Positions 1,505 through 17,110 of a DNA stretch of 64,000 bases are shown here, piece after piece. A program made the translations under genes and the position numbers. Location of the stretch: contig JAURMR010000026.1 of NCBI GenBank assembly GCA_030830565.1, positions 1 through 64,000 on the forward strand, in the 5' to 3' direction. Below the pieces are notes generated by a model that worked only from the letters and a program-made list of their open reading frames with translations, was not told where the DNA came from and ran no database searches. This stretch comes from Acidimicrobiales bacterium. Lineage in GTDB: Bacteria > Actinomycetota > Acidimicrobiia > Acidimicrobiales > Acidimicrobilacustridaceae. The first letter of the stretch is position 1. Every line of letters begins with the position of its first letter.

Positions 1505-2653
1505 GTGACTGACGCCGATGCGACAATTCGATCTGAATCTGGACGACTCAAGATCGCGCTGATCTCCGATTGCTACGTCCCACGCCTAGGCGGCATTGAG
1601 ATGCAGGTTCATGATCTGGCTCGCCATTTGCAGCGGGCCGGACACGAAGTTGTGGTCGTGACCACAACCGGTGGGCCCGATGTCGTTGATGGCGTTCGAG
1701 TTCATCGCATTGATGTGCCGTTGCTCCCGTTTGACATCCCCTTTACTCGCCGCGCATTCCGCAGCGTGGCCGATGCACTGGTCGCCGAGCGAGTTGATGT
1801 GGCTCATTTCCACGGCGGAGTCGTGAGCCCACTTGCCTACAAAGGAGCGCGCGACGCACAGCATGCGGGAATTCCTGTTGTGGTCACTCTTCATTGCATT
1901 TGGAGTTACGCGACTCCGTTTTTTTGGGCGATCAACAAAGTGACGAAGTGGGGGCAGTGGCCGGCGGTGTTGTCTGCGGTGAGTGAAGTTGCGGTCGCGC
2001 CCGTTCGGCGCATTGCTGCGAACGACGCGACTGTCGTGGTGCTGCCTAACGGAATCGAAAACGAGACCTGGAAGATCGAACCGGCTGAACGTGATCGTTC
2101 GGTTGTCACTCTTGTTTCGGTCATGCGACTTGCTCCGCGAAAGCGTCCGATGCATTTGTTACGAATGATTAAGGACGTGCGCGATCGGACCCCGCGATCA
2201 ATCGATGTTCGACTCGTCGTCATTGGCGATGGTCCTGAATTGGGTCAGATGGAGAAGTACGTGCGCGAGAACGGACTCACGAACACCGTGTCGCTGGTTG
2301 GTCGTCGAACTCGTGAGGAAATTCGCGAGATTTACAGTCGCGCTGACGTGTTTGTTGCCCCCGCAAACCTTGAGTCATTTGGTATCGCTGCGCTTGAGGC
2401 ACGTTGCGCTGGGCTACCTGTTGTTGCGAAAGCTCAGACTGGAATTCGTGAGTTTGTGACCCATGAACGAGAGGGTCTCCTTGCGGCCAACGATGCTGAG
2501 ATGGCTCGCGAGCTAACGAGAATCGTGAACGATCGACTTTTGCGAGAGAAAATTGCAACGCATAATCGCTCGACGCCTTCGCCGGTTGACTGGGCGGACG
2601 TGGTTGAACGCAATGTCGAGGCCTATCGACTCGCGATCAGTTTGCAGTCGTAA
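1505..2653 (+). CDS. Family 4 (GT-B) glycosyltransferase
   Basis: A 382-residue GT-B enzyme. The N-terminal Rossmann half begins with LKIALISDCYVPRLGGIE, the typical GT4 opening with the Gly-rich acceptor loop. The C-terminal half holds the nucleotide-sugar motif of the E-x7-E type, in FVAPANLESFGIAALEARCAGLPVV. It should transfer a sugar from a nucleotide donor to a lipid or polysaccharide acceptor on the cytoplasmic face; the sugar is not predictable. The GTG at 1505 is preceded by AGGAG at 1496-1500. The reading frame is open far upstream, but that part is only the complement of the PIG-L gene. The 3' end overlaps the convergent PAP2 gene by 17 bases. Confidence 0.87.
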   Translation: MTDADATIRSESGRLKIALISDCYVPRLGGIEMQVHDLARHLQRAGHEVVVVTTTGGPDVVDGVRVHRIDVPLLPFDIPFTRRAFRSVADALVAERVDVAHFHGGVVSPLAYKGARDAQHAGIPVVVTLHCIWSYATPFFWAINKVTKWGQWPAVLSAVSEVAVAPVRRIAANDATVVVLPNGIENETWKIEPAERDRSVVTLVSVMRLAPRKRPMHLLRMIKDVRDRTPRSIDVRLVVIGDGPELGQMEKYVRENGLTNTVSLVGRRTREEIREIYSRADVFVAPANLESFGIAALEARCAGLPVVAKAQTGIREFVTHEREGLLAANDAEMARELTRIVNDRLLREKIATHNRSTPSPVDWADVVERNVEAYRLAISLQS

Positions 2654-3506
2654 CGGGAGCGCCTCGACCGGCTCGGGTGATCGCACGAGCCGCATAGTAG
2701 GCAAAGGTGAAGAGAGCGAAACCGGCAACAGCGTCGAGCACGTAGTGATTTGCCGTGATGACCACGACGTAGACGGTCATGATGGGGTAGAGGATCACGA
2801 GCGTCTTCGACCACCACGACTTCATTCGTGGAAGTAATGCAATGAGTCCCCAGAATGCCCATCCGCAATGGAGTGATGGCATCGCCGCGAATTGGTTAGA
2901 GATCGTTTTCATTGCCTCATCGTTAAATGACCAGAAGGTCGGGAACTCGACGAGCGTGTCGACAAAGCCGAACCAGTTGCCGGCGTTGGCTCCGTGAAGA
3001 AGCAATGTGTCGTCAAGGAGGCGGGGCGGCATAAGCGGGAACAGCGCGAATCCGATGAGTCCGCAAAGAGTGCCAATCATCAGAGTGTTTCTAAACAACG
3101 AATAGTCGTCGGGGAACTTCCGATACAGGAAGATCAACGTGAAAATTGTTGCGCCCATATAGACAGAGCCATAGAAGTAATTCGCGAAAACGATGAGGGC
3201 AGTGAAGTCAAGTGCGAAATTCTGCATTGCTTGTTCGTGCCAAATGCCGAGCGTGCGCTGCCAGTCAATGATTCGCAGAGCGTTTTCGTAGGCCTTATCG
3301 GGTTTGCCAGCCGAAAGATTTCGCACGGTTTCGTACACAATGTCGACCACGACGACAATCAGAATTTCGCGCCACCAAAAGAGTTTCTTGCCGTCGGAAA
3401 GTGTGCGCCCCGCAAATAAATTGCGTCGCTGAGCGGGCCGAGTCGTTTCCGATGACCCCGCTGAACCCGTTGGCCCGCCTGATGCCTCGATATTGGTTTC
3501 GGTCAT
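2637..3506 (-). CDS. PAP2-superfamily membrane phosphatase / inositol-phosphoryl-transferase-like protein
   Basis: A 289-residue polytopic protein with about six membrane segments after a hydrophilic, Ser/Gly-rich N-terminus. The PAP2 active-site signature is visible as MPPRLL, then MPSLHCGWA (catalytic His in the SLH motif), then TANHYVLDAVAG, where the His/Asp pair completes the phosphatase site. The layout resembles the PAP2_3 branch that includes inositol phosphorylceramide synthases, so the substrate is probably a lipid phosphate handled outside the membrane. It starts with ATG overlapping the sugar dehydrogenase stop (ATGA), so the two form an operon. Lipid phosphatase and lipid head-group transferase roles cannot be separated from sequence alone. 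Confidence 0.8.
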   Translation of the reverse strand: MTETNIEASGGPTGSAGSSETTRPAQRRNLFAGRTLSDGKKLFWWREILIVVVVDIVYETVRNLSAGKPDKAYENALRIIDWQRTLGIWHEQAMQNFALDFTALIVFANYFYGSVYMGATIFTLIFLYRKFPDDYSLFRNTLMIGTLCGLIGFALFPLMPPRLLDDTLLLHGANAGNWFGFVDTLVEFPTFWSFNDEAMKTISNQFAAMPSLHCGWAFWGLIALLPRMKSWWSKTLVILYPIMTVYVVVITANHYVLDAVAGFALFTFAYYAARAITRAGRGAPVTTAN

Positions 3507-4918
3507 CCCGCCACCAACCGTTGCACTGAACCGCCGGCAGTAACGATGTACAACTCGCCTTGGTTGTCCTCGGCGAACGCCACTATCGAGTTGGTACCGA
3601 GCTGCGGTCCGATTGCTTTGTCATCAAGAAGAACACCCTTCCGCTGAAGGAGTCCTTTGACAGTTCCGGTGCAGAAGTCGCCATAGATATAGACACCCTG
3701 AAGTTCGGTGATCGAACCGCGGTAGACGAAGCCGCCAATGACGGGGCAGTTGGCGCCATTGCTCGGGGCTACCGCAATGGGGGTGACTAGCGAAGAAGGG
3801 GCACCCTCAGTGACTGGCCCGGGTTCTTTTCCATCTTTATAGGGCCAGCCCAAGTTGGCGCCATCGCCAGCCCCGGACGACACGGGGAGGTAATCGATTT
3901 CACTGAATTGAACGCGGCCGGCGTCAGCGACCCACATATTTCCATTGGCTCGATCAAAACTGAATCGGAGAGGGTTCTGCGCGCCCAATGACCAGATCTG
4001 CGGAGCTCCGCCACCAGCAGCAAATGGATTGCCCGGAGGAATGGCATAGGGATCGGCCAAAGTCGCTCCGCCTGGATCGATACGAAGGATCTTTCCGAGC
4101 AGCGACTCTGGGTTCTGCGCGGCCTTTTCCACTCCACCATTCGGCGAGTCGCCGACACCGATATAGAGAAATCCGTCGCGACCCAATGTGAGTTGACCGG
4201 AGTAGTTGGTTGTTCCTTCGCGCGCGATTGTGAGAAGCGTGCGCTTTGATCCCGCATCGACAACGGGCGCGGGGATGACGGGCAGCACCTGCGTCGTTGT
4301 CGAGGTCGGTGCAGCAGTTGTTGTGGGTGCGCCAGGCACAGTTGGTCCCGGAGCCGGGGGAGCAGGAATGGTGACAGGCGGTGGAACTGGGTCGGAGACG
4401 TTCCACGACGCGACAACAATCTCGCCCTTCTTATTCACGTAACTGAGGAACAACGAGCGCGCGTCGGTGGAGAACGCGATTCCAAGCAGGCCTCGTTCAC
4501 CATCAGACGCGACGTCGCTGGAAATGTCGAAGACCGCACCGGGGTAGGTCTTGAAACCGTTGCGCTGAGTTTGACCAAGTTCAAGATTCCACGCGGTTTG
4601 GATTTCGATTACGCGGACGGCTCCGGACCGTTGGGTGACCCAAAGCTGATTCCGCATCGGACGCGAGACGATGTTGGTGGCATCGTTGAATCCGCCAGCT
4701 ACTTCCGTTGCGAGCATCGTCTTGGAAATTGATGTTGGCCCGGTGCCCGTATCGACCGCCGTCGTAGGAGTAGTCGCTTGAGGGGTTTCGTCGGTGGAGG
4801 ACTTCTCTGGCGCGCTGCAGGCAACGAGGGTGATGCCGAGTGCCACCGCAACGGCGCCAGCAAGTGCCCGGAACGCGTGTCCGGTCCTTTTGCGGCGGGG
4901 TTCGTACTGGTGGGCCAT
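3503..4918 (-). CDS. PQQ-dependent sugar (glucose/sorbosone) dehydrogenase-like lipoprotein
   Basis: The 471-residue protein starts with a basic n-region and a hydrophobic stretch ending in the lipobox LVAC, so it should be exported and lipid-anchored at about Cys35. The body is a six-bladed beta-propeller of the soluble glucose dehydrogenase (GSDH) family, with GERGLLGIAFS, GVGDSPNGG, LLGKILRIDPGG and WSLGAQNPLRFSFD in the family order. A Pro/Thr-rich insertion of about 45 residues lies between early blades. Relatives oxidise aldoses with PQQ, but many actinobacterial members have no tested activity. The gene is divergent from pstC and is co-transcribed with the PAP2 gene downstream. Confidence 0.83.
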   Translation of the reverse strand: MAHQYEPRRKRTGHAFRALAGAVAVALGITLVACSAPEKSSTDETPQATTPTTAVDTGTGPTSISKTMLATEVAGGFNDATNIVSRPMRNQLWVTQRSGAVRVIEIQTAWNLELGQTQRNGFKTYPGAVFDISSDVASDGERGLLGIAFSTDARSLFLSYVNKKGEIVVASWNVSDPVPPPVTIPAPPAPGPTVPGAPTTTAAPTSTTTQVLPVIPAPVVDAGSKRTLLTIAREGTTNYSGQLTLGRDGFLYIGVGDSPNGGVEKAAQNPESLLGKILRIDPGGATLADPYAIPPGNPFAAGGGAPQIWSLGAQNPLRFSFDRANGNMWVADAGRVQFSEIDYLPVSSGAGDGANLGWPYKDGKEPGPVTEGAPSSLVTPIAVAPSNGANCPVIGGFVYRGSITELQGVYIYGDFCTGTVKGLLQRKGVLLDDKAIGPQLGTNSIVAFAEDNQGELYIVTAGGSVQRLVAG

Positions 4919-5133
4919 GGCGCATTGAGGCTACCGATGTTTTTGCGAGCGTTGCAGCCAGGGCAGTGTTGGAACGACATCTCCGAGCAACCCGTTGTTC
5001 ACCTTCGGGGGAATTGATTCATGAGGTGTTGGTACGGGGTTTGTTGTTCTTTCGGCTCGGTTCACGTTCACTACGAACACCTGTGGAAGCAGGCCCGTAC
5101 GAGGGCCGATTCCCGAACCCGTCTCCGGAGTTG
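4919..5133. promoter_or_regulatory. Divergent intergenic region upstream of pstC
   Basis: The 215-bp gap separates the divergent sugar dehydrogenase and pstC genes. It contains GTTCACC at 4997-5003 and two head-to-tail GTTCAC hexamers at 5060-5071, which resemble half sites of actinobacterial PHO boxes but not in the usual 11-nt register. The pstC ribosome binding site CCGGAG is at 5125-5130. A phosphate-responsive promoter is expected from the gene content, but the operator position is uncertain. Confidence 0.35.
4928..4933 (-). promoter_or_regulatory. Candidate -10 box for the sugar dehydrogenase gene
   Basis: On the minus strand TAGCCT lies nine bases before the ATG at 4918, with no ribosome binding site between them. 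This fits a leaderless or nearly leaderless transcript, which is common in actinobacteria. No clear -35 hexamer is visible. Confidence 0.35.
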
Positions 5134-6165
5134 ATGAACGTCGTGCCCGGCACAGTTGTAGAGGACCCACCGGTCGCCGAAGACCCTCCCGCGCCACGGG
5201 AGCGGACTCGCAGAGTCATTACCGAAGTGCCAAGCCGGGCAGACCGACGGTTCAATCAGATCACGATGGGTGCTGGCATTTCCGTGCTGGTCCTGCTCAC
5301 CCTCGTAGGTCTCTTCTTGATGATCCAGAGCAGCGATGCCCTTGGGGAAACGGGGATCTGGACATTCCTGACCCGCACTGAATGGCGCACCGATGTGACC
5401 CCAGCCCGGATCGGTGTTCTCGGTCTTCTTGCCGGAACGGTTTTGGTCGCGGTTGTTGCCGTTGTCATTGCAGTGCCACTGAGTGTCTTTAGTGCTCTTG
5501 CGATCACGGAGTATTCGACGGCGAAGCGTCGGAAGTGGTTAGTCGGAGTGGTTGACCTCCTCGCTGCGGTCCCAAGTCTTCTTTTTGGCCTCTGGGGTTT
5601 TCTCTATCTTTCGGACAAAATCGTGCCGATTTCGCTGTGGTTGACCCAGAACTTCGGTTGGTTCCCGCTCTTTAAGACCTCGGAAGACGCGAGCCTCACC
5701 GGTTCGATTTTCATCGCAGGAATCGTGGTTGCACTGATGGTCTTACCGATCATCACCTCGGTCGTGCGCGAAGTGTTTTCGCAGACTCCGCCAGGTGAAA
5801 AGGAAGCGGCACTCGCTCTGGGGGGAACTCGCTGGGGGATGATCAAAACTGTCGTGCTGCCATTTGGCAAGGGCGGAATTGTCGGTGGCTCAATGCTTGG
5901 TTTGGGTCGCGCACTTGGAGAGACGATCGCGGTCGCGCTGTTGCTTCCGCAGGTGCCGCAGAAGATCGGCGAAAGCATTCACATTCTCCAAAATGGTGGA
6001 GCAACCGTTTCGGGTTTCATTGCAAACCGAGCTGGCGCAGACGAATTCACTACCTCGGGTCTTCTTGCCGCAGGTCTTGTGCTCTTCATCATCACCCTAG
6101 GAACCAACATGATCGCTTCGGTCGTGGTGTCAAAGAGCCGCTCTGGTGCGGGGGTTGACATATGA
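5134..6165 (+). CDS. pstC: Phosphate ABC transporter permease PstC
   Basis: The 343-residue protein is one of the two membrane subunits of the high-affinity phosphate importer. A hydrophilic Pro/Glu/Arg-rich N-terminus of about 45 residues is followed by six predicted membrane helices. The family landmarks LLAAVPSLLFGLWGFL and the EAA loop KEAALALGGTRWGMIKTVVLP, which docks on PstB, are present. I chose the ATG at 5134 because CCGGAG stands immediately before it; the frame is open further upstream without conserved sequence. The stop overlaps pstA (ATGA), and the pst genes run in the order C-A-B-S rather than the more common S-C-A-B. Confidence 0.95.
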   Translation: MNVVPGTVVEDPPVAEDPPAPRERTRRVITEVPSRADRRFNQITMGAGISVLVLLTLVGLFLMIQSSDALGETGIWTFLTRTEWRTDVTPARIGVLGLLAGTVLVAVVAVVIAVPLSVFSALAITEYSTAKRRKWLVGVVDLLAAVPSLLFGLWGFLYLSDKIVPISLWLTQNFGWFPLFKTSEDASLTGSIFIAGIVVALMVLPIITSVVREVFSQTPPGEKEAALALGGTRWGMIKTVVLPFGKGGIVGGSMLGLGRALGETIAVALLLPQVPQKIGESIHILQNGGATVSGFIANRAGADEFTTSGLLAAGLVLFIITLGTNMIASVVVSKSRSGAGVDI

Positions 6166-7388
6166 CCTCAACAACATCAGCAACCTCTGCAACACCGGAA
6201 ACCTCGACAAAAACAACGACAATGGCGACCGCGTCACGAGCCCCGAGAAATCGTAAGCGCACAGCTCGACGACCACGAGAGTTCACGACGTTCGACGTGT
6301 GGGTCCTCGTTGGTTCCCTCATTAGTGCGTTGTGTTTGAACTGGTTGATCTTCTATCGACTGACAGCCGGTGCGAGCGCCTTCGGATTTCTCCTCGGTTC
6401 GTACGTCACGTTTCTTGCGATCTTTGCGATCGTGACCACGGATCGTGTTGGTCGCCTCGTCGCATCCGATCGAGTTATGACAGTTGTCGTAGTGACCGCA
6501 GCGGCGATTGTGTTCATTCCGTTGGTGCTTTTGATCGGCTACATCCTCGTTGAGGGTCTAAAGGCGCTCCGCCCCAGTTTCTTCTTTGAGGATCAGCAAG
6601 GCATCACCCCTGTGATGCCGGCGACGTCGGGTGGTGGCTTCCACGCAATCATCGGCACCATCGAACAAGTTGGTCTCGCGCTGCTCTGGTCGCTGCCCCT
6701 TGCACTCGCAGCTGCGGTCTTCCTCAATGAGAGCCGAAGCAAATGGCGTCGCCCGGTTCGGATCTTCGTCGACGCGATGAGCGGGCTTCCGTCGATCGTT
6801 GCGGGTCTCTTCATCTTCGCAACATTGATTCTTCCATTCGCGAAATCGGGAAATCCGCTGTTTGGCTACAACGGATTTATGGCCAGTTTGGCGCTGGCGA
6901 TCACGATGCTTCCAACAATTACCCGAACAGTCGAAGTCGTTCTTCGACTTGTTCCTGATGGTTTGCGTGAGGCCAGCCTTGCTCTCGGCGCATCGCGTGC
7001 ACGCACGGTTTGGTCCGTCGTCTTCCCGACGTCACGGACGGGTATGACCACCGCAGTTGTTCTCGGCATCGCTCGAGCCGTTGGTGAAACCGCTCCGCTT
7101 TTGTTCACATCGTTTGGCTATGACCTTATGAACAGCAATCCATTTGCAGGCTCACAAGAAAGCCTGCCGCTATTCGTCTATCGGAATATTCGAAAGCCGG
7201 ATATCGCAGCGGTGCAGCGCGGATTCGCTGGCGCGCTCGTTCTCATGCTCATCGTCTTGGGTCTCTTCGCTATCGCACGCTTTATCGGCCGTGATCGGTC
7301 GAAGCGAAAGGCTCGAGGGCCAAAGCCCGCAACTCCCAACTCAGCGCAAGCAGCGAAACAACCACTGAAGGGTGGATCAAATGCCTGA
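6162..7388 (+). CDS. pstA: Phosphate ABC transporter permease PstA
   Basis: The second permease subunit of the phosphate importer. At 408 residues it is about 100 longer than the Escherichia coli protein. The first 40 residues are Thr/Ser/Arg-rich, followed by two additional helices near 47-65 and 70-90, an arrangement I associate with actinobacterial PstA. The core contains [15 protein letters not shown] and the EAA loop [20 protein letters not shown]. The C-terminus is basic. It overlaps pstC by four bases and pstB by eight bases. Confidence 0.95.
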
Positions 7389-8289
7389 TGTCGATGTAGA
7401 TGTAGATGTCGATAGTGAGGTTGAGCAGGATCTTGAGGAGAACCTGACCGAAGACGATCGCAACGAGGCTGAAAAAGTCTTTGCCAAGAAGGTCGAGATC
7501 ATCGGGGGACCTCCGGCTGGTCCCGCAACGCTCGAGGCAAAAGATGCCTGTGCTTGGTTCGGGGATCGTCTTGTTCTCGAGGGAGTCGACCTCATCATGC
7601 CGAAGGGAAAGGTGACTGCGCTTATTGGGCCCTCGGGTTGCGGTAAGTCGACCTTCCTTCGCCTTCTGAACCGCATGCATGAACTCATTCCCGGCGCTGC
7701 GCTTGACGGAGAAATTCTTCTTGATGGAGACGACATCTACGCGGCTGGCACTCGCGCTCAGCAAGTTCGCATGCGAATCGGCATGGTGTTTCAGAAGCCG
7801 AACCCATTTCCGGCAATGACAATCCGCGAAAACGTGCTTGCTGCTCTCAAGCTCGCGCGTTTGAAATGTGACGACAAAGACACACTCGTTGAGCAGTCGC
7901 TTCTGCGAGCAGGTCTCTGGAAAGAGGTTCGCGATCGTCTTGACAGTCCTGGCGGTGCGTTGTCCGGTGGTCAGCAGCAGCGGCTTTGTATTGCTCGATC
8001 GCTCGCCGTGCACCCCAATGTTTTGCTGATGGACGAGCCATGTTCCGCGCTTGATCCGACCTCGACTCGTCGTGTGGAAGAGACGATCGATGAGCTTCGC
8101 GGCGAAGTCACGGTGGTGATCGTCACCCACAACATGCAACAGGCACAGCGTGTCTCGGACTTATGTGCCTTCTTCCTTGCTGCTGAGAATCAGCCAGGAA
8201 TGGTGGTCGAACAGGGCCCGACCGACGTCATGTTCTCGACGCCAACCGATCCTCGAACACTCGACTATGTGCAAGGACGGTTCGGCTGA
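7381..8289 (+). CDS. pstB: Phosphate ABC transporter ATP-binding protein PstB
   Basis: The 302-residue ATPase powers phosphate uptake from the cytoplasmic side. Walker A is GPSGCGKST, the Q loop lies in [10 protein letters not shown] (the PstB type), the ABC signature is LSGGQQQR, and Walker B is VLLMDEP followed by the H loop VTHNMQQ. The N-terminus carries about 35 extra residues that are strongly acidic, beginning with alternating Asp-Val. I prefer the ATG at 7381, which has AAGGGTGG six to seven bases upstream, over the in-frame GTG at 7372. It overlaps the pstA end, and its stop overlaps the next start as TGATG. Confidence 0.95.
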
Positions 8290-9800
8290 TGCCTGCTGGC
8301 AAACGCACACTCATGCAGCGCACGCGTCGCATCGCAGGTGGTATTGCACTTGCAGCTGTTGCGCTTCTTGCATCTGCCGACGTTGCATCGGCGGCCCCTG
8401 CCCGCGTGAATGGTCAGGGTTCGTCCTATGTTGCGCTCGCCATGCAACAGTGGGTCGCCGATGCACAGACCACTGGCTTGCAGGTCAACTATCTGCCGAC
8501 TGGTTCACCGCAGGGCCTGACGTCATTTGGTCAATCGCTGGCGGACTTTGCTGGCACGGAAGCTGAATTCTCCGCGTTGTCATCTCCAGGTTCTGGAGAT
8601 AGCCGTGGTTATCAGTACGTACCAAGTGTCGCGGGCGCTGTCGCAGTGATGTACAACGTGCAGGACTCGGCGGGAAGAAAAGTCGACTACCTCCATTTGT
8701 CGCGCCGCACCGTTGCACGTATTTTCACCGGCGATATCAGCCGTTGGAACGATCCGGCGATTGCTGCGGATAATCGCGGTCTTGTACTTCCTGATCAACC
8801 CATCACCGTTGTGTATCGCGGAGGGCAATCGGGAACAACCGGACTCTTTTATGATTTCGTTGCCAACGTAGCGCCAGACATTTTTGGTCCATGGGCAGCG
8901 CAGAATCGCTTCCCCACGAGTGTTCGCATCATTCAGCTTGATAGTTCGCCTGGATTTGTTCCGAAGTCGCAAGCCTTCCAAGGCTCTGATCAGATCGCGC
9001 AGTTCATTGCGAGTGGTCAAGGACTTTGGAGCATCGGCTACGACGAATTTGGCTACTCGAAGACCTACAACGCCCCTTCGGCTTGGATCGAGAACGCAGC
9101 AGGCGAATGGATCCTTCCTTATGCGGAAAACATTTCCGCTGCACTTGAAGCAGCACAGTTGCGACCGGACCTGAGTCAGGAATTGTCGGGGGTTTACAAC
9201 TCGGGCAATCCGAAGGCGTATCCAATTTCGGCGTACAGCTACATCGTGACTCAGTGCACTCAGTCGCCTGATCGTCCGACGTGTAAGGGCCCCTACTCAA
9301 ACACGGGGGTGACCGAAACGTTGGCGTTGTGGCTTCGCTACATCGCGTGTGATGGCCAAGTGAACATGGCGAAAATCGGCTATTCGCCTCTGCCTCCGAA
9401 TCTTTCCCAAGAAGTTGCGAATTCAATCGCGAGATTGACCGGTCAGCCTCCTGAACAACTAAGCGCTGCAAATTGCGCGAATCCCCGGTTCTCAGGATCG
9501 GTAGGTGAAGGAGGGGGTAGTCCCCCCGACCCGTTGGCGGGCATCGCCTCGATTGGTGACGTCGCTGGCGGAGCAGTCTCAACAGCAGCCGATGCAACCG
9601 CAACCGCTTCGGGCGCGACAGGAGCAGCAAAATCCGCAGGAGGTGGAAGCACTGACTGGAGGAAAGCGACACCTGTTGCCTACACCGGGCCTTCGATTCC
9701 GACGTCGAACACCCTCGCGCTCGTGTTGTTGCTCATTGTGATGATCATGCCTATTGGTTTCGGGATTTTTCGATCGCGGCGCAACGCAAACAGCGCGTGA
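8289..9800 (+). CDS. PstS-like phosphate-binding protein with C-terminal sorting-signal-like anchor
   Basis: The 503-residue protein has an N-terminal export signal (about residues 12-36), a PstS-type binding domain, and a C-terminal membrane segment at about 475-494 followed by basic residues. PstS landmarks include TGDISRWNDPAI, the SGTT phosphate loop in RGGQSGTTGLF, and PISAYSYIV. Just before the membrane segment, VAYTG at 463-467 resembles the LAXTG motif recognised by class E sortases, with Val in place of Leu. A Ser/Gly/Ala-rich linker separates the domain from the anchor. It is the last gene of the pstC-A-B-S overlap chain. Wall attachment and simple membrane anchoring are both possible. 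Confidence 0.85.
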   Translation: MPAGKRTLMQRTRRIAGGIALAAVALLASADVASAAPARVNGQGSSYVALAMQQWVADAQTTGLQVNYLPTGSPQGLTSFGQSLADFAGTEAEFSALSSPGSGDSRGYQYVPSVAGAVAVMYNVQDSAGRKVDYLHLSRRTVARIFTGDISRWNDPAIAADNRGLVLPDQPITVVYRGGQSGTTGLFYDFVANVAPDIFGPWAAQNRFPTSVRIIQLDSSPGFVPKSQAFQGSDQIAQFIASGQGLWSIGYDEFGYSKTYNAPSAWIENAAGEWILPYAENISAALEAAQLRPDLSQELSGVYNSGNPKAYPISAYSYIVTQCTQSPDRPTCKGPYSNTGVTETLALWLRYIACDGQVNMAKIGYSPLPPNLSQEVANSIARLTGQPPEQLSAANCANPRFSGSVGEGGGSPPDPLAGIASIGDVAGGAVSTAADATATASGATGAAKSAGGGSTDWRKATPVAYTGPSIPTSNTLALVLLLIVMIMPIGFGIFRSRRNANSA

Positions 9801-9968: not shown

Positions 9969-11333
9969 GTGAAGAGTCCCTTGTTTAAACGAAGCCTTCT
10001 TGTGGGTGGAGCTCTCGCAACGCTTGCTGCGAGCCTCATCTCGACAAGCACCGGTGCTTCAGCGCAGATCGCGCCGCAGACCGCTGGTGTCGTTCTTGCC
10101 GCCGGCGGTTCGGACACGACGGAAAAGGTCATGGATGCGGTCTTGAGTCAGGCCAACGCCAATGCAGGCGAGACTTGGGTGAACCTTCCTTCATTCCCCA
10201 CCACCGCCATTCAGGTCCCTGGAGATCTGAACTGTCCGACGATGAGCTGGCAGCCGAATGGCGTTACGCCAGTCGCACCTGATCGCACCGTTCCCGCCGG
10301 TTCAGGAAATGGTCGTTCGATGTTGCAGACGTTGATCAACGACAACAACACCTACGGTTCACCAGCACGACCGGTGAAGGGTTGCTTGGACATCGCTCGT
10401 TCCTCGTCGTATAGCTCCTCGTCGCCAGCTGTTGGCACAGGCGAGTACTACGCCTTTGCTCTTGACGCTGTTTCGTGGGCAACGGGAAGCCTTTCTGCTC
10501 CCGCAGCTCTTTCAAAGGCTGATCTCGTCAAGATTTACAACTGCACCTACACCGACTGGTCGCAGGTTCCGGGCGGTTCCGCCGGCCCGATCCAGCGCTA
10601 CCTTCCGCAGTCAGGATCGGGCACCTATTCGTTCTTCCTGTCTGACGTGTTGGGCTCGTCTGCGTTCAACTTCGGAACACCTTCAGCGGATTGCCCTGCA
10701 CCAATCACGGTGAATGCTTCGGGTGCACCGCTTGAAGAGAACAACGCAAGTGTCATCAACCCGGCTCACTGGCAATCGGCGATCTTCCCGTATTCAGCTG
10801 GTCAGTGGGTCTACCAGGCCAACAACGCCGCCAACCCCACCATTGACAAGCGAGTGCTTCCCAGCGGCGGTGCCCCGGCTCGACTTGGTGGCATCCTCAC
10901 CAATGTTGACGCCAATGGCCTCACCACCACGAAATCGATGAATGCCAATCCAGCGGCCTACAACATCACCGATCGCAAGTGGCAGCTCAACGACGCTGGT
11001 CTGTCAGTCGTGCAGCCAAATGCCTCGGGCGGCTATCCGATCACTGAAGCGAGTTCAACCCGTGTGAACACCGTCCCGGCCTACATCGGTGTCCGCTTCG
11101 TGTACAACGTCCTTGACACCCGTTCGCCGAACTACAACGAAGCGCTCCTTGCTGTCGGCTTTGACAATGTCAACGGTGGCACCACGAAGAGTGCTCTGTG
11201 TGATGGACAGCGTGCAGCGATTATCGCGAGCTACGGCTTTGCTCCGCTTCCAACTACCAGTGTGACCGGAACCGTTGCTGCGTCAGCGAACTACAACCTG
11301 GCCAACTCAACTTGTCGAAGGATCGCAATCTGA
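9969..11333 (+). CDS. Secreted PstS-like substrate-binding protein
   Basis: The 454-residue protein has a Sec signal peptide (basic start, hydrophobic core, cleavage expected near residue 33 after GASAQ) and no C-terminal membrane segment. The mature part begins with a PBP-type strand and GGSDTTEKVMDAVL, and later has PQSGSGTYSFFL, the equivalent of the PstS phosphate loop. It is more divergent than the protein encoded just upstream, so another oxyanion ligand is possible. The GTG start at 9969 has GAAAGGA upstream. It is transcribed separately from pstC-A-B-S and ends in a strong hairpin terminator at 11341-11374. Confidence 0.78.
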   Translation: MKSPLFKRSLLVGGALATLAASLISTSTGASAQIAPQTAGVVLAAGGSDTTEKVMDAVLSQANANAGETWVNLPSFPTTAIQVPGDLNCPTMSWQPNGVTPVAPDRTVPAGSGNGRSMLQTLINDNNTYGSPARPVKGCLDIARSSSYSSSSPAVGTGEYYAFALDAVSWATGSLSAPAALSKADLVKIYNCTYTDWSQVPGGSAGPIQRYLPQSGSGTYSFFLSDVLGSSAFNFGTPSADCPAPITVNASGAPLEENNASVINPAHWQSAIFPYSAGQWVYQANNAANPTIDKRVLPSGGAPARLGGILTNVDANGLTTTKSMNANPAAYNITDRKWQLNDAGLSVVQPNASGGYPITEASSTRVNTVPAYIGVRFVYNVLDTRSPNYNEALLAVGFDNVNGGTTKSALCDGQRAAIIASYGFAPLPTTSVTGTVAASANYNLANSTCRRIAI

Positions 11334-11399: not shown

Positions 11400-12041
11400 A
11401 TGAGAAATCGTCGACTTCCCCTCGTTGGTGCCTTCGCTGCTGTCGTCGTTGTTGTGGCGCTTCTCGTCATCGCAACACGTGGTTCGTCGACGTCACAAAC
11501 GGAAGTTCGGGATGCCGGTTCGACGACCAACGTCTCCGAAGCTGAGACCTCAGCGTCAAGTTCAAGCACGACAATTGCGCCAGTGCCGGTCACCGATCCG
11601 ACTCCGACGGGCCCCTATACCACCCCGGATATGCCGGTGGCCGTCGCAGTCTCGACAACAACCGGTCTCCGTTCCGGTGATGTTGTAAGCGCAACGGCGT
11701 CGCCGGAAAATGGTTCTCCGGTCTACGGCGTCGAAGCTCGCTTGTGTTCGGGAACTGCGTCGATCAAATTCGACGGACAACTCTTCCCCACTCGAGCAGG
11801 CATGTGTCTTCCCAAGCCATTCGCTGAGGGGACCGATTCATTTGTCGAAGTCAAGAACGAACCGCCTTACGGGCCGGTCGTTGTGAAGTTTCGAGTGGGA
11901 ACCGGATCGCAGACGATTGCACTGCAAGACGGGACTCAGTCGACCATCACCTGTGATTCGGCACATCCCTGCCAGATCGTCCTGAAGATGCAGTACCCGA
12001 ATGGGTTCGGATTCCAAGGTGTGCCAGTCACGTTTCGGTGA
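11400..12041 (+). CDS. Membrane-anchored protein with neocarzinostatin-like four-Cys domain
   Basis: The 213-residue protein has an N-terminal membrane segment at residues 9-26, a Ser/Thr-rich linker to about 75, and one beta-rich domain (78-213). The domain has Cys at 116, 136, 185 and 191, a long loop pair and a short pair. This matches the disulfide spacing of the neocarzinostatin family, and the flanking sequence (a T-x-GL-x-x-GD/Q start and a GVPVTF end) also fits. The same domain occurs in the next two genes. The ATG has no ribosome binding site and lies 25 bases after the terminator. No function can be assigned; the pst setting suggests a surface or envelope role. Confidence 0.72.
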   Translation: MRNRRLPLVGAFAAVVVVVALLVIATRGSSTSQTEVRDAGSTTNVSEAETSASSSSTTIAPVPVTDPTPTGPYTTPDMPVAVAVSTTTGLRSGDVVSATASPENGSPVYGVEARLCSGTASIKFDGQLFPTRAGMCLPKPFAEGTDSFVEVKNEPPYGPVVVKFRVGTGSQTIALQDGTQSTITCDSAHPCQIVLKMQYPNGFGFQGVPVTFR

Positions 12042-12072
12042 CTGATTCCGCTCTGGGACTCGAACGCAAAGA

Positions 12073-12094
12073 GTTCACCTGCCGTTGATCCGTG
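12073..12094 (+). promoter_or_regulatory. Candidate PHO box upstream of the repeat-containing NCS-like gene
   Basis: GTTCACCTGCC is followed directly by GTTGATCCGTG, two 11-mers in the direct-repeat register of actinobacterial PHO boxes. The first is close to the commonly cited GTTCACC core; the second is weaker. It lies about 100 bases before the next start codon. Confidence 0.38.
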
Positions 12095-12192
12095 GTTTCC
12101 CACATCTCAACGCCTCGCTCATCTACGCAGTTCATTCTTCCTTTGTACGCAGTCAACTCCTGCACCCTCAACCACGAAGAGGTCGTACACCG

Positions 12193-13842
12193 ATGTCAAA
12201 GATCCGAATCCTTCGCAACCTGGGCGTCGTTATCGCCCTTGTGGCGTATGTGCTTTCGATTGCCACTCTCAACCCCGCAGGCGCTGAAACATCCTCCGTT
12301 CCGGTGAATGTCACGGCCTCGCCGACGGTCGGTCTCGTCGATGGCCAGGCCATCACCGTGACGGTCACCGCCGGGTCCAGTTTCATATACGGCATCGAAG
12401 CTCGGCAGTGTTCCTCGACCGCTGGGCCGATCGACTACACCGCTGACTTCTCGCCGACTGTTTCAGGTAAGTGCACGCCTACCGCTCTTGGCTCGGCTGG
12501 TGCGGACGCCTATAAGACCGTGACCGCCGTTGCTCCGTTCAGCACCGCCTCGCTTGAGTTCAAGGTCGGCAAGGGTTCCAGCGGCTCCTTCAACCTTCAG
12601 TCAGGCGGAACCGCAACGGTTCAGTGCGACGAAACTCATGCGTGCAAGCTCACACTTCTTCTCCAGGTTCAGGGCGGAACAGTGTTCCAGTCGTTCCCGA
12701 TCGGTTGGGATGGAATGGGCGCTCGATTCAACCCAATCACGCCAGTTCGAATTCTCGACACTCGTACCACGAACACTCCGAGTGGAGTCGCCGGTCGAGT
12801 GCCATCGGGCGGCACTATTGATCTTCAAATCACCGGAGATAACGGGATCCCTGCCGATGCCACGGCAGTCGTCATGAACGTGACTGCTGTAGCGCCGACT
12901 GGTGCTGGATTCATCACGGTTTGGCCTCGAGGGGTTACTCGACCTCTCTCGTCGAACCTGAATTTCGCGCCTGGTGACATTGTTCCCAACCTAGTGACGG
13001 TCGGTATCGGTTCGAACGGCCAGGTGAGTCTGTATCACCAGGGTGGAACCAACAATCTCATTGCAGACGTGGTTGGCTACTACTCGCCAGTGAATGGTGA
13101 CTACTTCACACCGCTCACGCCAGTACGTGCACTCGATACTCGTACAACAAACACCCCGAGCGGAACAGCAGCTCGAGTCGGTCAAGGTGGGGAGATTTCG
13201 CTCACCATTGCAAACGCAAATGGCGTTCCGGCGGATGCAACGGGTGTCGTTCTGAATGTGACCGCGGTCGGTCCCACGGCTGCCGGATATGTCACGGTGT
13301 ATCCGAATGGAGTGACTCGTCCGCTTGCTTCGAACCTCAACTTTGTTCCTGGCGACACGATCCCGAATTCGGTGATTGTCGGCATTGGCTCACAGGGCAA
13401 GGTCAATCTCTTCAACGCAAACGGAACGGTTAATCTCATCGCCGACATTGTTGGTTACTACTCACCCGACAACACCGGTAAGCAGTTCTTCCCAATCACG
13501 CCGGTTCGTGCCCTCGACACCCGCAATGGCACCGGCGGCTTCTCCGCAGCTGTTGGTCAGGCCGCGACGATTGACCTCGACATTCGTGGCGCCAATGGCA
13601 TACCCAATGGCGCTGGTGCGATCGTGATGAACACCACCGCAGTGTCTCCTACGGTCAGCAGCTACCTCACCGTGTGGCCGACCGGCGTTGCTCGTCCCTT
13701 GGCATCGAACCTCAACTACGGCGTTGGAGATGTCATCCCGAACCTTGTGCAGGTTGGAATCGGCAGCAACGGCAAGGTGAGCCTCTATAACAATGGCGGC
13801 TCTGTGAACCTCGTCGCCGATCTCACGGGGTACTTCGCTTGA
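12193..13842 (+). CDS. Secreted protein: NCS-like domain plus three beta repeats
   Basis: A 549-residue exported protein. The signal peptide covers about residues 1-31. The neocarzinostatin-like domain lies at 36-172, with Cys at 73, 94, 145 and 151. Then come three repeats of about 118 residues (179-297, 304-424, 432-549), each opening with a TPVR-x-LDTR motif and ending in an AD-x-x-GYY/GYF motif. This repeat is widespread in secreted actinobacterial proteins, and I know no established function for it. The ATG at 12193 is preceded by GAAGAGG ten bases upstream; the open frame before it looks non-coding. It ends just before the hairpin at 13868-13897. Confidence 0.8.
   Translation: MSKIRILRNLGVVIALVAYVLSIATLNPAGAETSSVPVNVTASPTVGLVDGQAITVTVTAGSSFIYGIEARQCSSTAGPIDYTADFSPTVSGKCTPTALGSAGADAYKTVTAVAPFSTASLEFKVGKGSSGSFNLQSGGTATVQCDETHACKLTLLLQVQGGTVFQSFPIGWDGMGARFNPITPVRILDTRTTNTPSGVAGRVPSGGTIDLQITGDNGIPADATAVVMNVTAVAPTGAGFITVWPRGVTRPLSSNLNFAPGDIVPNLVTVGIGSNGQVSLYHQGGTNNLIADVVGYYSPVNGDYFTPLTPVRALDTRTTNTPSGTAARVGQGGEISLTIANANGVPADATGVVLNVTAVGPTAAGYVTVYPNGVTRPLASNLNFVPGDTIPNSVIVGIGSQGKVNLFNANGTVNLIADIVGYYSPDNTGKQFFPITPVRALDTRNGTGGFSAAVGQAATIDLDIRGANGIPNGAGAIVMNTTAVSPTVSSYLTVWPTGVARPLASNLNYGVGDVIPNLVQVGIGSNGKVSLYNNGGSVNLVADLTGYFA
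12727..13839 (+). repeat. Three tandem coding repeats (about 118 codons each)
   Basis: The units are 12727-13083, 13102-13464 and 13486-13839, within the gene at 12193. Shared positions include the LDTR start, an NVTAV or NTTAV core, RPL-x-SNLN, and the GIGS-x-G-x-V segment. The DNA has diverged enough that recent duplication is unlikely. Confidence 0.8.
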
Positions 13843-15929
13843 CGGACACTCCCTGTTCCGCAGGTGGAAACTCCCGGCGACACGTCGCCGGGAGTTTCGT
13901 ATTCCTGATTTCAATTGCAGTCGTAGCGCTCGTCATCCTTTCGCTCGTGCCTCTGGTATCCAAAAGTGCGGGAGCTGCGAATGCGGCGACCCCATGGACG
14001 GTGTCAGTGACACCTTTCAATGATGTGAGCGATGGCACGCGCATCCGGATCACACTCCAGACGTCGGATGCCCATCCCATCTCGAGCGCGAAAGCCCAGG
14101 TGTGTCGTGCTGGTGTGAGTTACGGAACCAGTACGTCCTTTGTCCCGAATGATGATTTCCGAATCGGTGGCGCGAATTGTCCATCGATTCCGATCTCCAC
14201 ATCCGCCGACCTCTCGGCGCAGGCGTCGAATACTTATACCAACGCAACTCGACCGGGCGGTGACACCTTCACCATTTCGGCTGGGGTTGGAACTGTTGCG
14301 TGGAATGACACCAACGGTCAGGCCATGACGCTCACTTGTGATGCCCAAAATCCATGCGACCTTGTTGTTCAGGTTCGAGGAATCGACAATGACGGAGTGT
14401 TGCGATGGGTGCCCTATACCCAGCGGCTGACCTATCGAATCGATGACCCCATCGCCGGTTGCGGTGGACCTGCTCAAGGACTCGTTTCAAGTGCAAGCTC
14501 CGAGAGAAACAGTCGATTCTGGATTGATCTCACCCTTGCCCAGTGCAAGTCACCGGGTGCGCAGGCGGGAGCTCTCAGCAGCTCAAGTTTCGCGGGCGAG
14601 GGCAACGCGCTCGACATGTACACGCGTGGCGATGTCGATCTTGCCTACAGCAGCGTGGTCTACGACACCGCTCCGGGTCTCGGACGCGGGGATTCGTCAA
14701 GCCCGATGACTCCTCGCGAGTCGGCGATCGTTCCGATCGCTCTCAATGCGACTGTTCTTGCAGTTGGTAATGGCTATCAAGACGCCAATGGCGACAAGGC
14801 ACCGTATTCAGACGTCAAAATGACCCTTGATGAAGTTGCTGCTCTGTTGTCGGGCGGACCTGATCAGATCAATGGCTATCTTCCAGCAATTTATGGACGG
14901 AACCCACAGCTTCAGGGAACGGGGATGTTCTCAACGAGCTCCTCTATTCGCTTAGGCGCAGCGCCTGATGCGGAAAGCACAACCTGGTACTCAACCGGCA
15001 TCCTCGATGCGTTGCGTCCCAATCTTTGGAGGGTGCCAAACACCGGCACGTTCGGAATTGATGCGGGACGAGATCGCACTGCGGTCACATCGTTCGCACT
15101 TGCAGACCCTTCGTTTCAAGGAGTGCTGAACCTCTATACGGGTACATCAATTCTTGACAAAGCGATCAAATTGCAAGGCAACGGAGATTTTGGCGGCATT
15201 TGGGCGGTCACTGATCTAGCGACAGCCCGCAGTCTCGGGATGTCGGTTGTCCAGATTGAGAATGCAGCAGGCGCGTTTGTCGAACCGACGGAAGCATCGA
15301 TGCTCTCTGCGGTCGCTTCGATGACCACCGCGTCTGACGGGCGCTTGGTGCCCAATTATTCAGCCGCCGCCGTGCAGGGAGTTGAGCCCTATCCGCTCAC
15401 GTTTGTTGAGTACGCAGTAGCGCCCTTGAAGCCGTTGGTTGATGTTCGTTGTAACCCGCGATTGACCTCGCAGCAGTTGCTGACCAACTGGCTTACCTAT
15501 GTGACTCATGCGGGCCAACAGAACCTGCCTGCTGGCATGGTTGCGATCACCCCAGCAATGGTGCAGAGCGCTGAGGCACAGATCGCAAAAGTTGGGACCG
15601 TGGCCAATACCTGCGTGCCTGTTCCTGATGGCCCGGCTACTCCCAATAGCGGTACAGATGGAATCGTGACTCCGCCATCGGCGCTCACGAGTCGTTACGC
15701 CACGTCGGGTCTAGCGCGGGTTGCTCCAGATGGTTCGACTGTTGCTGTCGATGCGCAGCTGGCCTCCGTGCAAGCAGAAATGCCAGATTTCGTTCGACGC
15801 TCAGCGAGTGGAAATGCGCTCGCGCTCATGGGGTTGGTTGCCGTTCTGGCACTTCTCACGCTTTCGGCAATGGCGACGTCTGGTCGACTTTCCTTCGATC
15901 GTTTCCGTCGCGGCGGACGGTCCTCGTGA
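13839..15929 (+). CDS. NCS-like domain fused to a PstS-like domain, membrane anchored
   Basis: The 696-residue protein has an export signal or anchor at about 19-40, a neocarzinostatin-like domain at 52-199 (Cys 89, 114, 167, 173), a PstS-like binding domain from about 206 to 600, and a C-terminal membrane segment near 666-684 with a basic tail. The PstS part is recognisable by a MYTRGDVDLAYSS segment and by YPLTFVEYAVAP near its end. The only conventional start in frame is TTG at 13839, overlapping the previous stop as TTGA, with no clear ribosome binding site. A strong hairpin lies within the first 20 codons, so expression may be restricted. It overlaps the sortase-like gene by four bases. 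Confidence 0.72.
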   Translation: MTDTPCSAGGNSRRHVAGSFVFLISIAVVALVILSLVPLVSKSAGAANAATPWTVSVTPFNDVSDGTRIRITLQTSDAHPISSAKAQVCRAGVSYGTSTSFVPNDDFRIGGANCPSIPISTSADLSAQASNTYTNATRPGGDTFTISAGVGTVAWNDTNGQAMTLTCDAQNPCDLVVQVRGIDNDGVLRWVPYTQRLTYRIDDPIAGCGGPAQGLVSSASSERNSRFWIDLTLAQCKSPGAQAGALSSSSFAGEGNALDMYTRGDVDLAYSSVVYDTAPGLGRGDSSSPMTPRESAIVPIALNATVLAVGNGYQDANGDKAPYSDVKMTLDEVAALLSGGPDQINGYLPAIYGRNPQLQGTGMFSTSSSIRLGAAPDAESTTWYSTGILDALRPNLWRVPNTGTFGIDAGRDRTAVTSFALADPSFQGVLNLYTGTSILDKAIKLQGNGDFGGIWAVTDLATARSLGMSVVQIENAAGAFVEPTEASMLSAVASMTTASDGRLVPNYSAAAVQGVEPYPLTFVEYAVAPLKPLVDVRCNPRLTSQQLLTNWLTYVTHAGQQNLPAGMVAITPAMVQSAEAQIAKVGTVANTCVPVPDGPATPNSGTDGIVTPPSALTSRYATSGLARVAPDGSTVAVDAQLASVQAEMPDFVRRSASGNALALMGLVAVLALLTLSAMATSGRLSFDRFRRGGRSS
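13868..13897 (+). terminator. Perfect 14-bp hairpin after the repeat protein gene, inside the next reading frame
   Basis: AAACTCCCGGCGAC pairs perfectly with GTCGCCGGGAGTTT across two bases (four unpaired in practice). It begins 25 bases after the stop at 13842 and is followed by CGTATTCC. It looks like an intrinsic terminator, but it overlaps codons 10-20 of the downstream gene, whose basic signal-peptide start it encodes. Confidence 0.65.
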
Positions 15930-17110
15930 CATCGGTACTTGATCGAATGCAAACGACAGATTCCGAAACGCACGACGTAAGCGATGAGGTTGAGCCCGAG
16001 GTTGAGATCGAAGAGGATTCCTCCGAAGACCTCACCGCGGCGCGAACGATGGCGACTGGTCCGTTGGTGGCGCTTTGGATCGTTATTGCTGTCCTGATTC
16101 TCGGCATCGTTCTCTATGTGATTGAACCCATGTTTCAAGAGCGCGATCAAGGGTTACTGCTTGATCGCTACCGGACGACCGTCGACAAAGCAGCGAACCA
16201 GGCAACCGGACTCCAAGGCGTCGAAGTTCCCACGACTGCGCCGGCGTTCGGAAGCCCAGTTGGCATTCTCGAAATCGGTTCGCTCGGTCTGCAAACGGTG
16301 ACGGTTGAAGGCGTCGACTCGGCGACAACTCGAGTTGGGCCGGGACATGTCCCTGGCACCGCTGCTCCAGGTCAACCCGGTAACTCGGTAATCGTCGGTC
16401 GTCGAACGATGTTCGGCGGTCCATTCGGTGACATTTCAACGATGCAGGTCGGCGACGAAATCATTGTCACGACGACGCAAGGTCAAAGCTTGTACCAAGT
16501 GACCGATGTTGGCCAGGCGGAGCTGACGTCTGAAGCAACTCCGGCGACTGCACCAGCTGTTGCTGCACCGACCACGACGACGACCAGCACCACGACGACA
16601 ACAATCGCCGGTGCCGAAGCGGCCCCGATCGTGGAAGCGACGCCGACTGAGCCTCTTGTGGATCCCGCAGCAGGGGAAGCGGTTGCAGAGCCGACCACGA
16701 CAACGACAATCGCCGCTGTCGAGTCGTCGCTCACGGGCGGCCGCATTCCGCTCAATAGTTTGTATGGCACTTCATCTGATGACCGACTCACATTGGTCTC
16801 TTCAGCCAGTGCGTTTCCGTGGAACTCGGCTCAGGCTGACGTCGTCGTTGCCGTCATGATTGGCAAGCCATTCGCGCCAACTCCACAAAATGGTCGTATG
16901 GCCGGTCAAGGTGGAAACGTTGGCGATACAGCGGCATGGCCGATTGTTCTTCTTGCCTTCATCTTCCTCGGAGCAACGGTGACCGGCGCGGTTCTGCTGT
17001 ATCGACGGTCCTCGCCTCGAGTGGCGTACCTGCTGACAGTTCCGCCGTTGGTCGTCTTTGCGATCCTTGCTGCTGAATCGTTTAGTCGATTGCTTCCGGC
17101 CTGGTCATAG
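15926..17110 (+). CDS. Class E sortase-like protein lacking catalytic residues
   Basis: The 394-residue protein has an acidic cytoplasmic N-terminus, a membrane segment at 47-66, a sortase-like beta domain, and two C-terminal membrane segments near 337-358 and 367-384. RVGPGHVPGTAAPGQPGNSV and the later TMQVGDEIIV segment match class E sortases. The catalytic positions do not: Arg159 replaces the His of the GHRTT motif, Ser292/Ser293 stand where TLxTC has Cys, and the following Arg is absent. A Thr/Ala/Pro-rich insertion of about 70 residues splits the domain. It is probably a non-catalytic sortase fold working with the neighbouring surface proteins. The GTG start overlaps the previous stop (GTGA). 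Confidence 0.75.
   Translation: MTSVLDRMQTTDSETHDVSDEVEPEVEIEEDSSEDLTAARTMATGPLVALWIVIAVLILGIVLYVIEPMFQERDQGLLLDRYRTTVDKAANQATGLQGVEVPTTAPAFGSPVGILEIGSLGLQTVTVEGVDSATTRVGPGHVPGTAAPGQPGNSVIVGRRTMFGGPFGDISTMQVGDEIIVTTTQGQSLYQVTDVGQAELTSEATPATAPAVAAPTTTTTSTTTTTIAGAEAAPIVEATPTEPLVDPAAGEAVAEPTTTTTIAAVESSLTGGRIPLNSLYGTSSDDRLTLVSSASAFPWNSAQADVVVAVMIGKPFAPTPQNGRMAGQGGNVGDTAAWPIVLLAFIFLGATVTGAVLLYRRSSPRVAYLLTVPPLVVFAILAAESFSRLLPAWS

Follow-up and report, generated by a model that had tools for sequence, protein, structure and literature searches.

The phosphate-specific transport (Pst) system is a textbook transporter that usually has four components; what, then, are the additional genes doing in a pst cluster that continues, without a change of strand, into genes for three domain-sharing proteins and a sortase-like protein? 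The cluster lies in a 64,000-nucleotide stretch (the window; positions 1 to 64,000 of contig JAURMR010000026.1, assembly GCA_030830565.1) of an Acidimicrobiales bacterium, whose genome comprises 2.0 Mb in 44 contigs and is 71% complete. Between 4840 and 17110 the window carries pstC-pstA-pstB-pstS1-pstS2-A-B-C-S, all on one strand, where A, B and C encode proteins with a common four-cysteine domain and S encodes the sortase-like protein. Protein C joins the four-cysteine domain to a PstS-like half that has lost its SGT loop, and protein S has lost the sortase active site. The cluster suggests that the Pst transporter has an accessory part not described so far. A preliminary description of this DNA was concerned with A, B and C; the pseudosortase S, which lay outside it, is the more unusual member of the set.

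A sortase fold without its active site

Protein S is a sortase by profile (PF04203, 52 bits against a cut-off of 26.6), and an S profile searched against the PDB matched 5go6 (labelled a putative secreted protein, E=8.2e-20) and 5cuw (SrtE1, E=3.2e-10). Its best NCBIfam model is that of class E sortases, although the score of 70.8 bits falls below the cut-off of 160. Window S contains no cysteine at all, with Arg, Ser and Ala occupying the sites of the catalytic His, Cys and Arg of sortases. Hydropathy reveals one N-terminal and two C-terminal hydrophobic segments.

Relatives of S were collected with a profile of four such proteins searched against 296 genomes of the class (Acidimicrobiia), from which 40 regions were fetched, mostly by rank, and from 80 of 160 confirmed named loci. 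In these 80 loci, the closest named relatives belong to metagenome-assembled genomes (MAGs) mostly labelled Actinomycetota, Actinobacteria, Acidimicrobiia or Microthrixaceae. Identical sequences and aligned fragments blank at both sites were dropped, giving 120 distinct sortase rows; among them, locus L129 is counted twice (broken frame), L092 and L099 are cut pieces of one MAG, and three cut or broken rows (L099 and both L129 rows) lack a residue at one of the two sites. Adjacency was defined as lying within 8 kb on the fetched piece, with PstS1 included among the pst genes. Many active class-E-like sortases of the class adjoin a divergent ATP-binding cassette ATPase distinct from PstB, for example at L084 8859-10597.

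None of the 52 rows linked to pst genes or to C has either the catalytic His or the catalytic Cys, whereas 63 of the 68 unlinked rows have both. In the 40 rows near pst genes, Arg occupies the His site 39 times and one row is blank there; the Cys site holds Ser (29), Ala (7), Met (1) or Val (1), with two blanks. All 12 rows near C only have Arg at the His site, with Ser (10), Ala (1) or Gly (1) at the Cys site. The 68 rows with neither pst genes nor C nearby carry His (63) or Arg (5) at the His site, and Cys in 62 by alignment column, or 63 if L150 is included, where the column holds Met and the Cys is shifted by one. The third catalytic residue, Arg, follows the same division, being kept in 10 of 52 linked rows (Ala in 27) against 63 of 68 unlinked ones.

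The dead sortases also form a single grouping. In a tree of 118 rows, the 55 dead ones fall on one side of a branch with support of 99/93 when the active-site columns are included, and the same grouping has a support of 87, by a quicker tree method, when five columns around each site are masked. A motif comparison grouped rows by their His-site residue, so that its values of 56/56 Arg and 57/57 His are true by construction; because this grouping is circular, active-site loss was counted by gene context instead. GPGH, GQPGN, Phe167 and Tyr190 are conserved, and structural motifs are kept about equally in the dead and active groups. Because these motifs stay conserved the S domain is probably not decaying, and from its sequence S reads as a maintained pseudo-enzyme rather than a gene on its way to loss.

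One use for an emptied pocket that now contains a conserved Arg would be sensing: the pocket would bind a carboxylate tail, phosphate or polyphosphate, and S would signal to the transporter or gate it. Such a role would suit a phosphate-uptake locus in which 51 of 52 linked rows have Arg in place of the catalytic His (the remaining row being blank) and a second Arg follows the first in 36 of 56 rows, but it agrees less well with the frequent loss of the third catalytic Arg and with Lys in place of Arg at the His site of L172, a later locus. We consider a sensor possible but unlikely.

Association with one pst type and with protein C

The preliminary description had suggested a survey of genomes for co-occurrence of the four-cysteine domain with pstS; in the genomes surveyed here, C tracks one type of pstC. 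Protein C was detected in 21 of 148 genomes of the class at E<=1e-20 and a pstC match in 89 of 148; the idea that the cassette is a general feature of the class was rejected, since C is confined to those 21 genomes. A single-sequence search with C, superseded by the profile searches, had reached 10 of 148 genomes, two of them near full length besides the window. At a pstC cut-off of 1e-70, 21 genomes have a best match at or below the threshold and 20 of them have C, versus one of the 68 other pstC genomes; this cut-off was set after the data had been seen, and the next matches (3.4e-65 and 1.0e-61) are both in genomes without C. The lone C genome among the other 68, G243, has a match to the PstS lobe only. 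The proposed tie between the domain and phosphate uptake is thus borne out strongly for C. For A and B it is narrower: in the named loci examined, they were seen as genes of their own in L088-L100 and L111 only, a limited section of the tree. Neither C nor S was seen in four loci that have other pst types (L174-L177).

Outside the class, the same set was found in Amycolatopsis, Actinomadura and a MAG labelled Lapillicoccus, and more distantly in Streptomyces sp. CB02009, and S is conserved across two classes of Actinomycetota. The C proteins of these outside hosts have four cysteines close to the N-terminus, spaced more widely in Streptomyces. A related locus in Fodinicola has broken frames. 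The record of locus L091 is labelled Bifidobacterium breve, apparently in error: it carries a window-type cassette and clusters in the tree with rows from Acidimicrobiia.

C and S are neighbours in most cassettes. Read from the fetched pieces, S adjoins or is fused to C in 15 of the 20 genomes with C and this pstC type, and lies further off in the same gene run in three (G102, G190 and G271); the contigs of the remaining two (G159 and G259) end in or just past C. Fusion as a single open reading frame (ORF) was seen in two species of one genus, with lengths of 1000 amino acids (C part 27-705, sortase 722-1000) and 1324 amino acids (C part 221-874, sortase 881-1323).

Several PstS paralogues are common in Gram-positives, and the cluster could be an ordinary wall-facing Pst locus with duplicated PstS paralogues and adhesive domains, in which S is a passive relic. 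The variability of the repeats among B homologues would be in keeping with this, but a relic would hardly be conserved over two classes, stay with C, retain its structural residues and become fused to C in one genus. We judge this explanation improbable.

A PstS-like half without its phosphate loop

The PstS domain that the preliminary description saw fused into C is indeed present. TIGR00975 matches C at E=4e-4 (19.6 bits, below the cut-off of 205), the predicted structure matches PstS in Foldseek at 7.4e-12, and the C family profile matches PDB 4lvq at E=1e-23. In PstS the SGT loop binds phosphate. Alignment to PDB 8ods indicates that window PstS1 retains this loop; the RxxxSGT loop is missing at the aligned place in window C and in 16/16 aligned C proteins, several of which read NAD there. 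A regular expression found the motif in 33 of 40 PstS1-like ORFs versus three of 68 ORFs of the C list, and of those three, two are one locus fetched twice and one is protein A.

PstS1 and most C proteins end in a transmembrane (TM) segment followed by basic residues, an ending that sortase substrates share. S may recognize such tails yet leave them uncut. Covalent anchoring of PstS1 through a VAYTG tail was considered but is not supported as a trait of the family, as this pentapeptide was found only in the window, L089, L091 and L099 among the listed PstS1 tails.

The sorting-signal-like tails, together with the predominance of Ser in place of the catalytic Cys (39 of 52 linked rows), would also fit an S that works as an enzyme with another nucleophile, Ser or Thr, and anchors PstS1, C or B to the wall. 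Set against this are Ala, Met, Val or Gly at the same site in 11 of 52 linked rows, the lack of His in linked rows, the loss of most of the Arg residues and the want of a conserved pentapeptide, and we regard such an enzyme as quite improbable.

The four-cysteine domain

The cysteine pairs reported in the preliminary description are exact: 116/136 and 185/191 in A, 89/114 and 167/173 in C, and 73/94 and 145/151 in B when counted from 12193 (109/130 and 181/187 when the longer ORF that starts at 12085 is used). Its claim that three consecutive proteins share one domain also holds, as the three are homologous by shuffle tests and by a C-domain profile. Pairwise scores exceed the best of 500 shuffles for A-B (216 versus 55), A-C (96 versus 55) and, by a narrow margin only, B-C (67 versus 60). 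The C-domain profile, built from 18 C-domain relatives alone with no A or B in training, gave 47.2 bits for A and 39.6 bits for B, compared with 9.9 bits for the best shuffled copy of A or B (500 each). All four domain cysteines are kept in 16/16 aligned C proteins.

Assignment of the domain to the neocarzinostatin fold is on firmer ground for C than for its neighbors. The top five PDB entries for the C-domain profile are without exception enediyne apoproteins, namely one each of kedarcidin, C-1027 and macromomycin and two of neocarzinostatin (E=2.2e-4 to 0.097). PF00960 matched 5 of the 18 C-domain relatives at E<=0.1 (best 6.5e-10) and NF040680, the NCBIfam enediyne chromoprotein model, matched 7 of 18 (best 3.8e-12). 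For the window proteins themselves, PF00960 gave no match to A, B or C at E<=1, and the NCBIfam enediyne chromoprotein model gave weak matches to B (0.0029) and C (0.032) and none to A.

An AlphaFold model of C (predicted local distance difference test, pLDDT, 72.5; predicted template modelling score, pTM, 0.63) matched PstS structures first in Foldseek, with neocarzinostatin and macromomycin lower down over ~150 columns (2cbo 2.2e-4, 1nco 5.5e-4, 2mcm 6.1e-4; probability 1.00; TMt 0.53-0.59). The Foldseek output came without matched residues, and the neocarzinostatin match is assigned to the N-terminal domain by assumption; unrelated large proteins appeared too, with similar E-values and lower probability. 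In a weak model of B (pLDDT 68.3, pTM 0.45), neocarzinostatin was absent from the 50 matches listed. Membership of the C domain among neocarzinostatin-type apoproteins is supported by profiles and predicted fold. The preliminary description had made its family depend on one predicted fold in all three proteins; that fold was obtained for C, and A and B are brought in through their sequence homology to C.

Likeness in fold and profile to enediyne apoproteins could mean that these domains bind a small hydrophobic ligand and that the set serves ligand uptake or self-protection rather than phosphate, which the strict linkage of C to one pst type makes very improbable. On the ligands named in the preliminary description, a small molecule or a polyphosphate or teichoic-type polymer, the data speak neither for nor against.

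The region of B from 12709 to 13839 contains three ~115-residue repeats (ITPVRxLDTR...LVADxxGYY) with no Pfam match, and in the B homologues of L094 and L096 a different C-terminal part replaces them. Elsewhere in the same genome, at L001 1441-2859 (G000:C29), another neocarzinostatin-like domain (PF00960, 24.9 bits) forms the C-terminal portion of an ORF that resembles a hydrolase.

A proposed Pst subtype with two pseudo-proteins

We tentatively interpret the locus as a distinct Pst subtype found in Actinomycetota, in which two pseudo-proteins, C and S, make up an additional accessory at the membrane; this is a proposal drawn from sequence comparison, to which we give a little less than an even chance. 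S would no longer cut or join proteins, and would serve as a docking scaffold outside the membrane. We propose that it would hold C, with which it forms a single polypeptide in one genus, and possibly also the sorting-signal-like tails of PstS1. In a cell that has no outer membrane, docking would keep the binding proteins beside PstCA. C would resemble PstS but take no part in transport, and would position or regulate the other binding proteins; its neocarzinostatin-like domain would serve as a spacer or wall-facing adhesive module, of which A and B would supply extra copies in the lineage of the window. A bolder form of the proposal, in which the dead sortase with its conserved Arg and the PstS look-alike are an obligatory regulatory or docking module controlling phosphate capture in one clade, is conceivable but rather doubtful.

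Several observations weigh against the two-pseudo-protein accessory. Most pstC-matching genomes of the class (68 of 89) are without C, and the cassette is thus dispensable for phosphate uptake as such. The association of C with one pstC type has a Fisher p of ~1e-17, a value that ignores relatedness and depends on a post hoc cut-off, and in genome G072 this pstC type was seen without C, on a contig that ends right after pstA. Five dead sortase rows have neither pst genes nor C nearby (L065, L066, L092, L104 and L105). These lie mostly on short contigs; L065 adjoins a PstS2 match, L066 adjoins an ORF that is PstS2-like by eye, and L105 has a sub-threshold C match. In a second cassette subtype (L072, L076, L077, L079 and L173) genes intervene between C and S, the order being pstC, pstA, pstS, C, further genes, dead sortase and pstB; the intervening ORFs in L076 and L079 have no Pfam match at E<=0.01. 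The juxtamembrane tails of PstS1 and C share only a loose Pro-containing pattern, with neither LPxTG nor a conserved pentapeptide. Finally, a search for direct repeats of the PHO-box type gave 12 matches compared with a shuffle mean of 7.24, and 7 of 100 shuffles reach 12. Matches no better than chance leave phosphate regulation of the cluster unsupported.

Organization of the gene run

The features of the cluster are collected in Table 1. Stop/start overlaps, including those of pstB-pstS1, B-C and C-S among others, occur along the run. A hydropathy scan of pstS2 gave no TM segment. Upstream of the pst cluster, with one gene intervening, a PAP2 superfamily phosphatase gene occupies 2637-3506 on the minus strand.

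Table 1 Features of the pst-A-B-C-S cluster, in window coordinates.
Feature	Position	Strand	Supporting match or remark
pstC, permease subunit	4840..6165	+	TIGR02138, 241.3 bits, cut-off 196.45 (passed); conserved part from ~5197
pstA, permease subunit	6162..7388	+	TIGR00974, 222.7 bits, cut-off 193.45 (passed)
pstB, ATPase	7372..8289	+	TIGR00972 top family, 320.2 bits, short of cut-off 343.2
pstS1, phosphate-binding protein; SGT loop, C-terminal TM and basic tail	8289..9800	+	TIGR00975, 1.9e-49, 168.5 bits, short of cut-off 205
pstS2, second PstS-like binding protein	9969..11333	+	PF12849, 5.3e-9
Protein A; N-terminal hydrophobic segment and neocarzinostatin-like domain	11400..12041	+	
Neocarzinostatin-like domain of A	11634..12029	+	Profile match, residues 79-210, E=4e-13
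Protein B; signal-like segment, neocarzinostatin-like domain and three ~115-residue beta repeats	12193..13842	+	
Neocarzinostatin-like domain of B	12301..12681	+	Profile match, E=8.9e-11
Protein C; N-terminal hydrophobic segment, neocarzinostatin-like domain, SGT-less PstS-like domain, C-terminal TM and basic tail	13839..15929	+	
Neocarzinostatin-like domain of C	13989..14456	+	Profile match, residues 51-206; predicted fold
Protein S, pseudosortase; N-terminal TM, Cys-free class-E-like sortase domain, two C-terminal hydrophobic segments	15926..17110	+	PF04203, 7.3e-14
Codon of S Arg159, catalytic His site	16400..16402	+	
Codon of S Ser293, catalytic Cys site	16802..16804	+	

Significance and comparison with known systems

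A dead sortase that accompanies one Pst subtype in two classes of Actinomycetota would mean that the sortase fold has a role other than transpeptidation, and would give annotators a reason against naming such genes sortases. If the bolder form of the proposal is true, the sortase fold has been recruited as a non-catalytic receptor in a transporter, and two pseudo-proteins, one descended from a transpeptidase and the other from a binding protein, control phosphate capture. Cultured hosts (Amycolatopsis and Actinomadura) make the question testable. In open-licence literature, judged from titles and abstract openings, we found no description of this set of Pst, neocarzinostatin-domain and pseudosortase genes.

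The closest counterparts are known for the individual parts. Like the neocarzinostatin, C-1027, kedarcidin and macromomycin apoproteins (PF00960), the C domain has the predicted fold and two cysteine pairs, the second narrow; the window domains differ in being fused to PstS or to TM anchors and in having longer insertions. CwpG of Actinoplanes missouriensis is a Cwp-named protein with a neocarzinostatin-like domain, and the excerpted part of that report mentions neither a pst link nor a pseudosortase (PMC13251363).

S shares its sortase domain with class E sortases such as SrtE1 (PDB 5cuw), the class of its best NCBIfam model, but scores under the NCBIfam cut-off, and in its group the catalytic His has become Arg, the Cys has become Ser, Ala or another residue, and the Arg is mostly lost. 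By sequence, the C family profile matches PstS3 of Mycobacterium tuberculosis (4lvq) best, which differs from C in retaining SGT. As in the PstSCAB importer, the window has pstC, pstA, pstB and a PstS1 with an SGT loop; it differs in adding PstS2, C and a dead sortase, and in a PstS1 that ends in a C-terminal TM segment.

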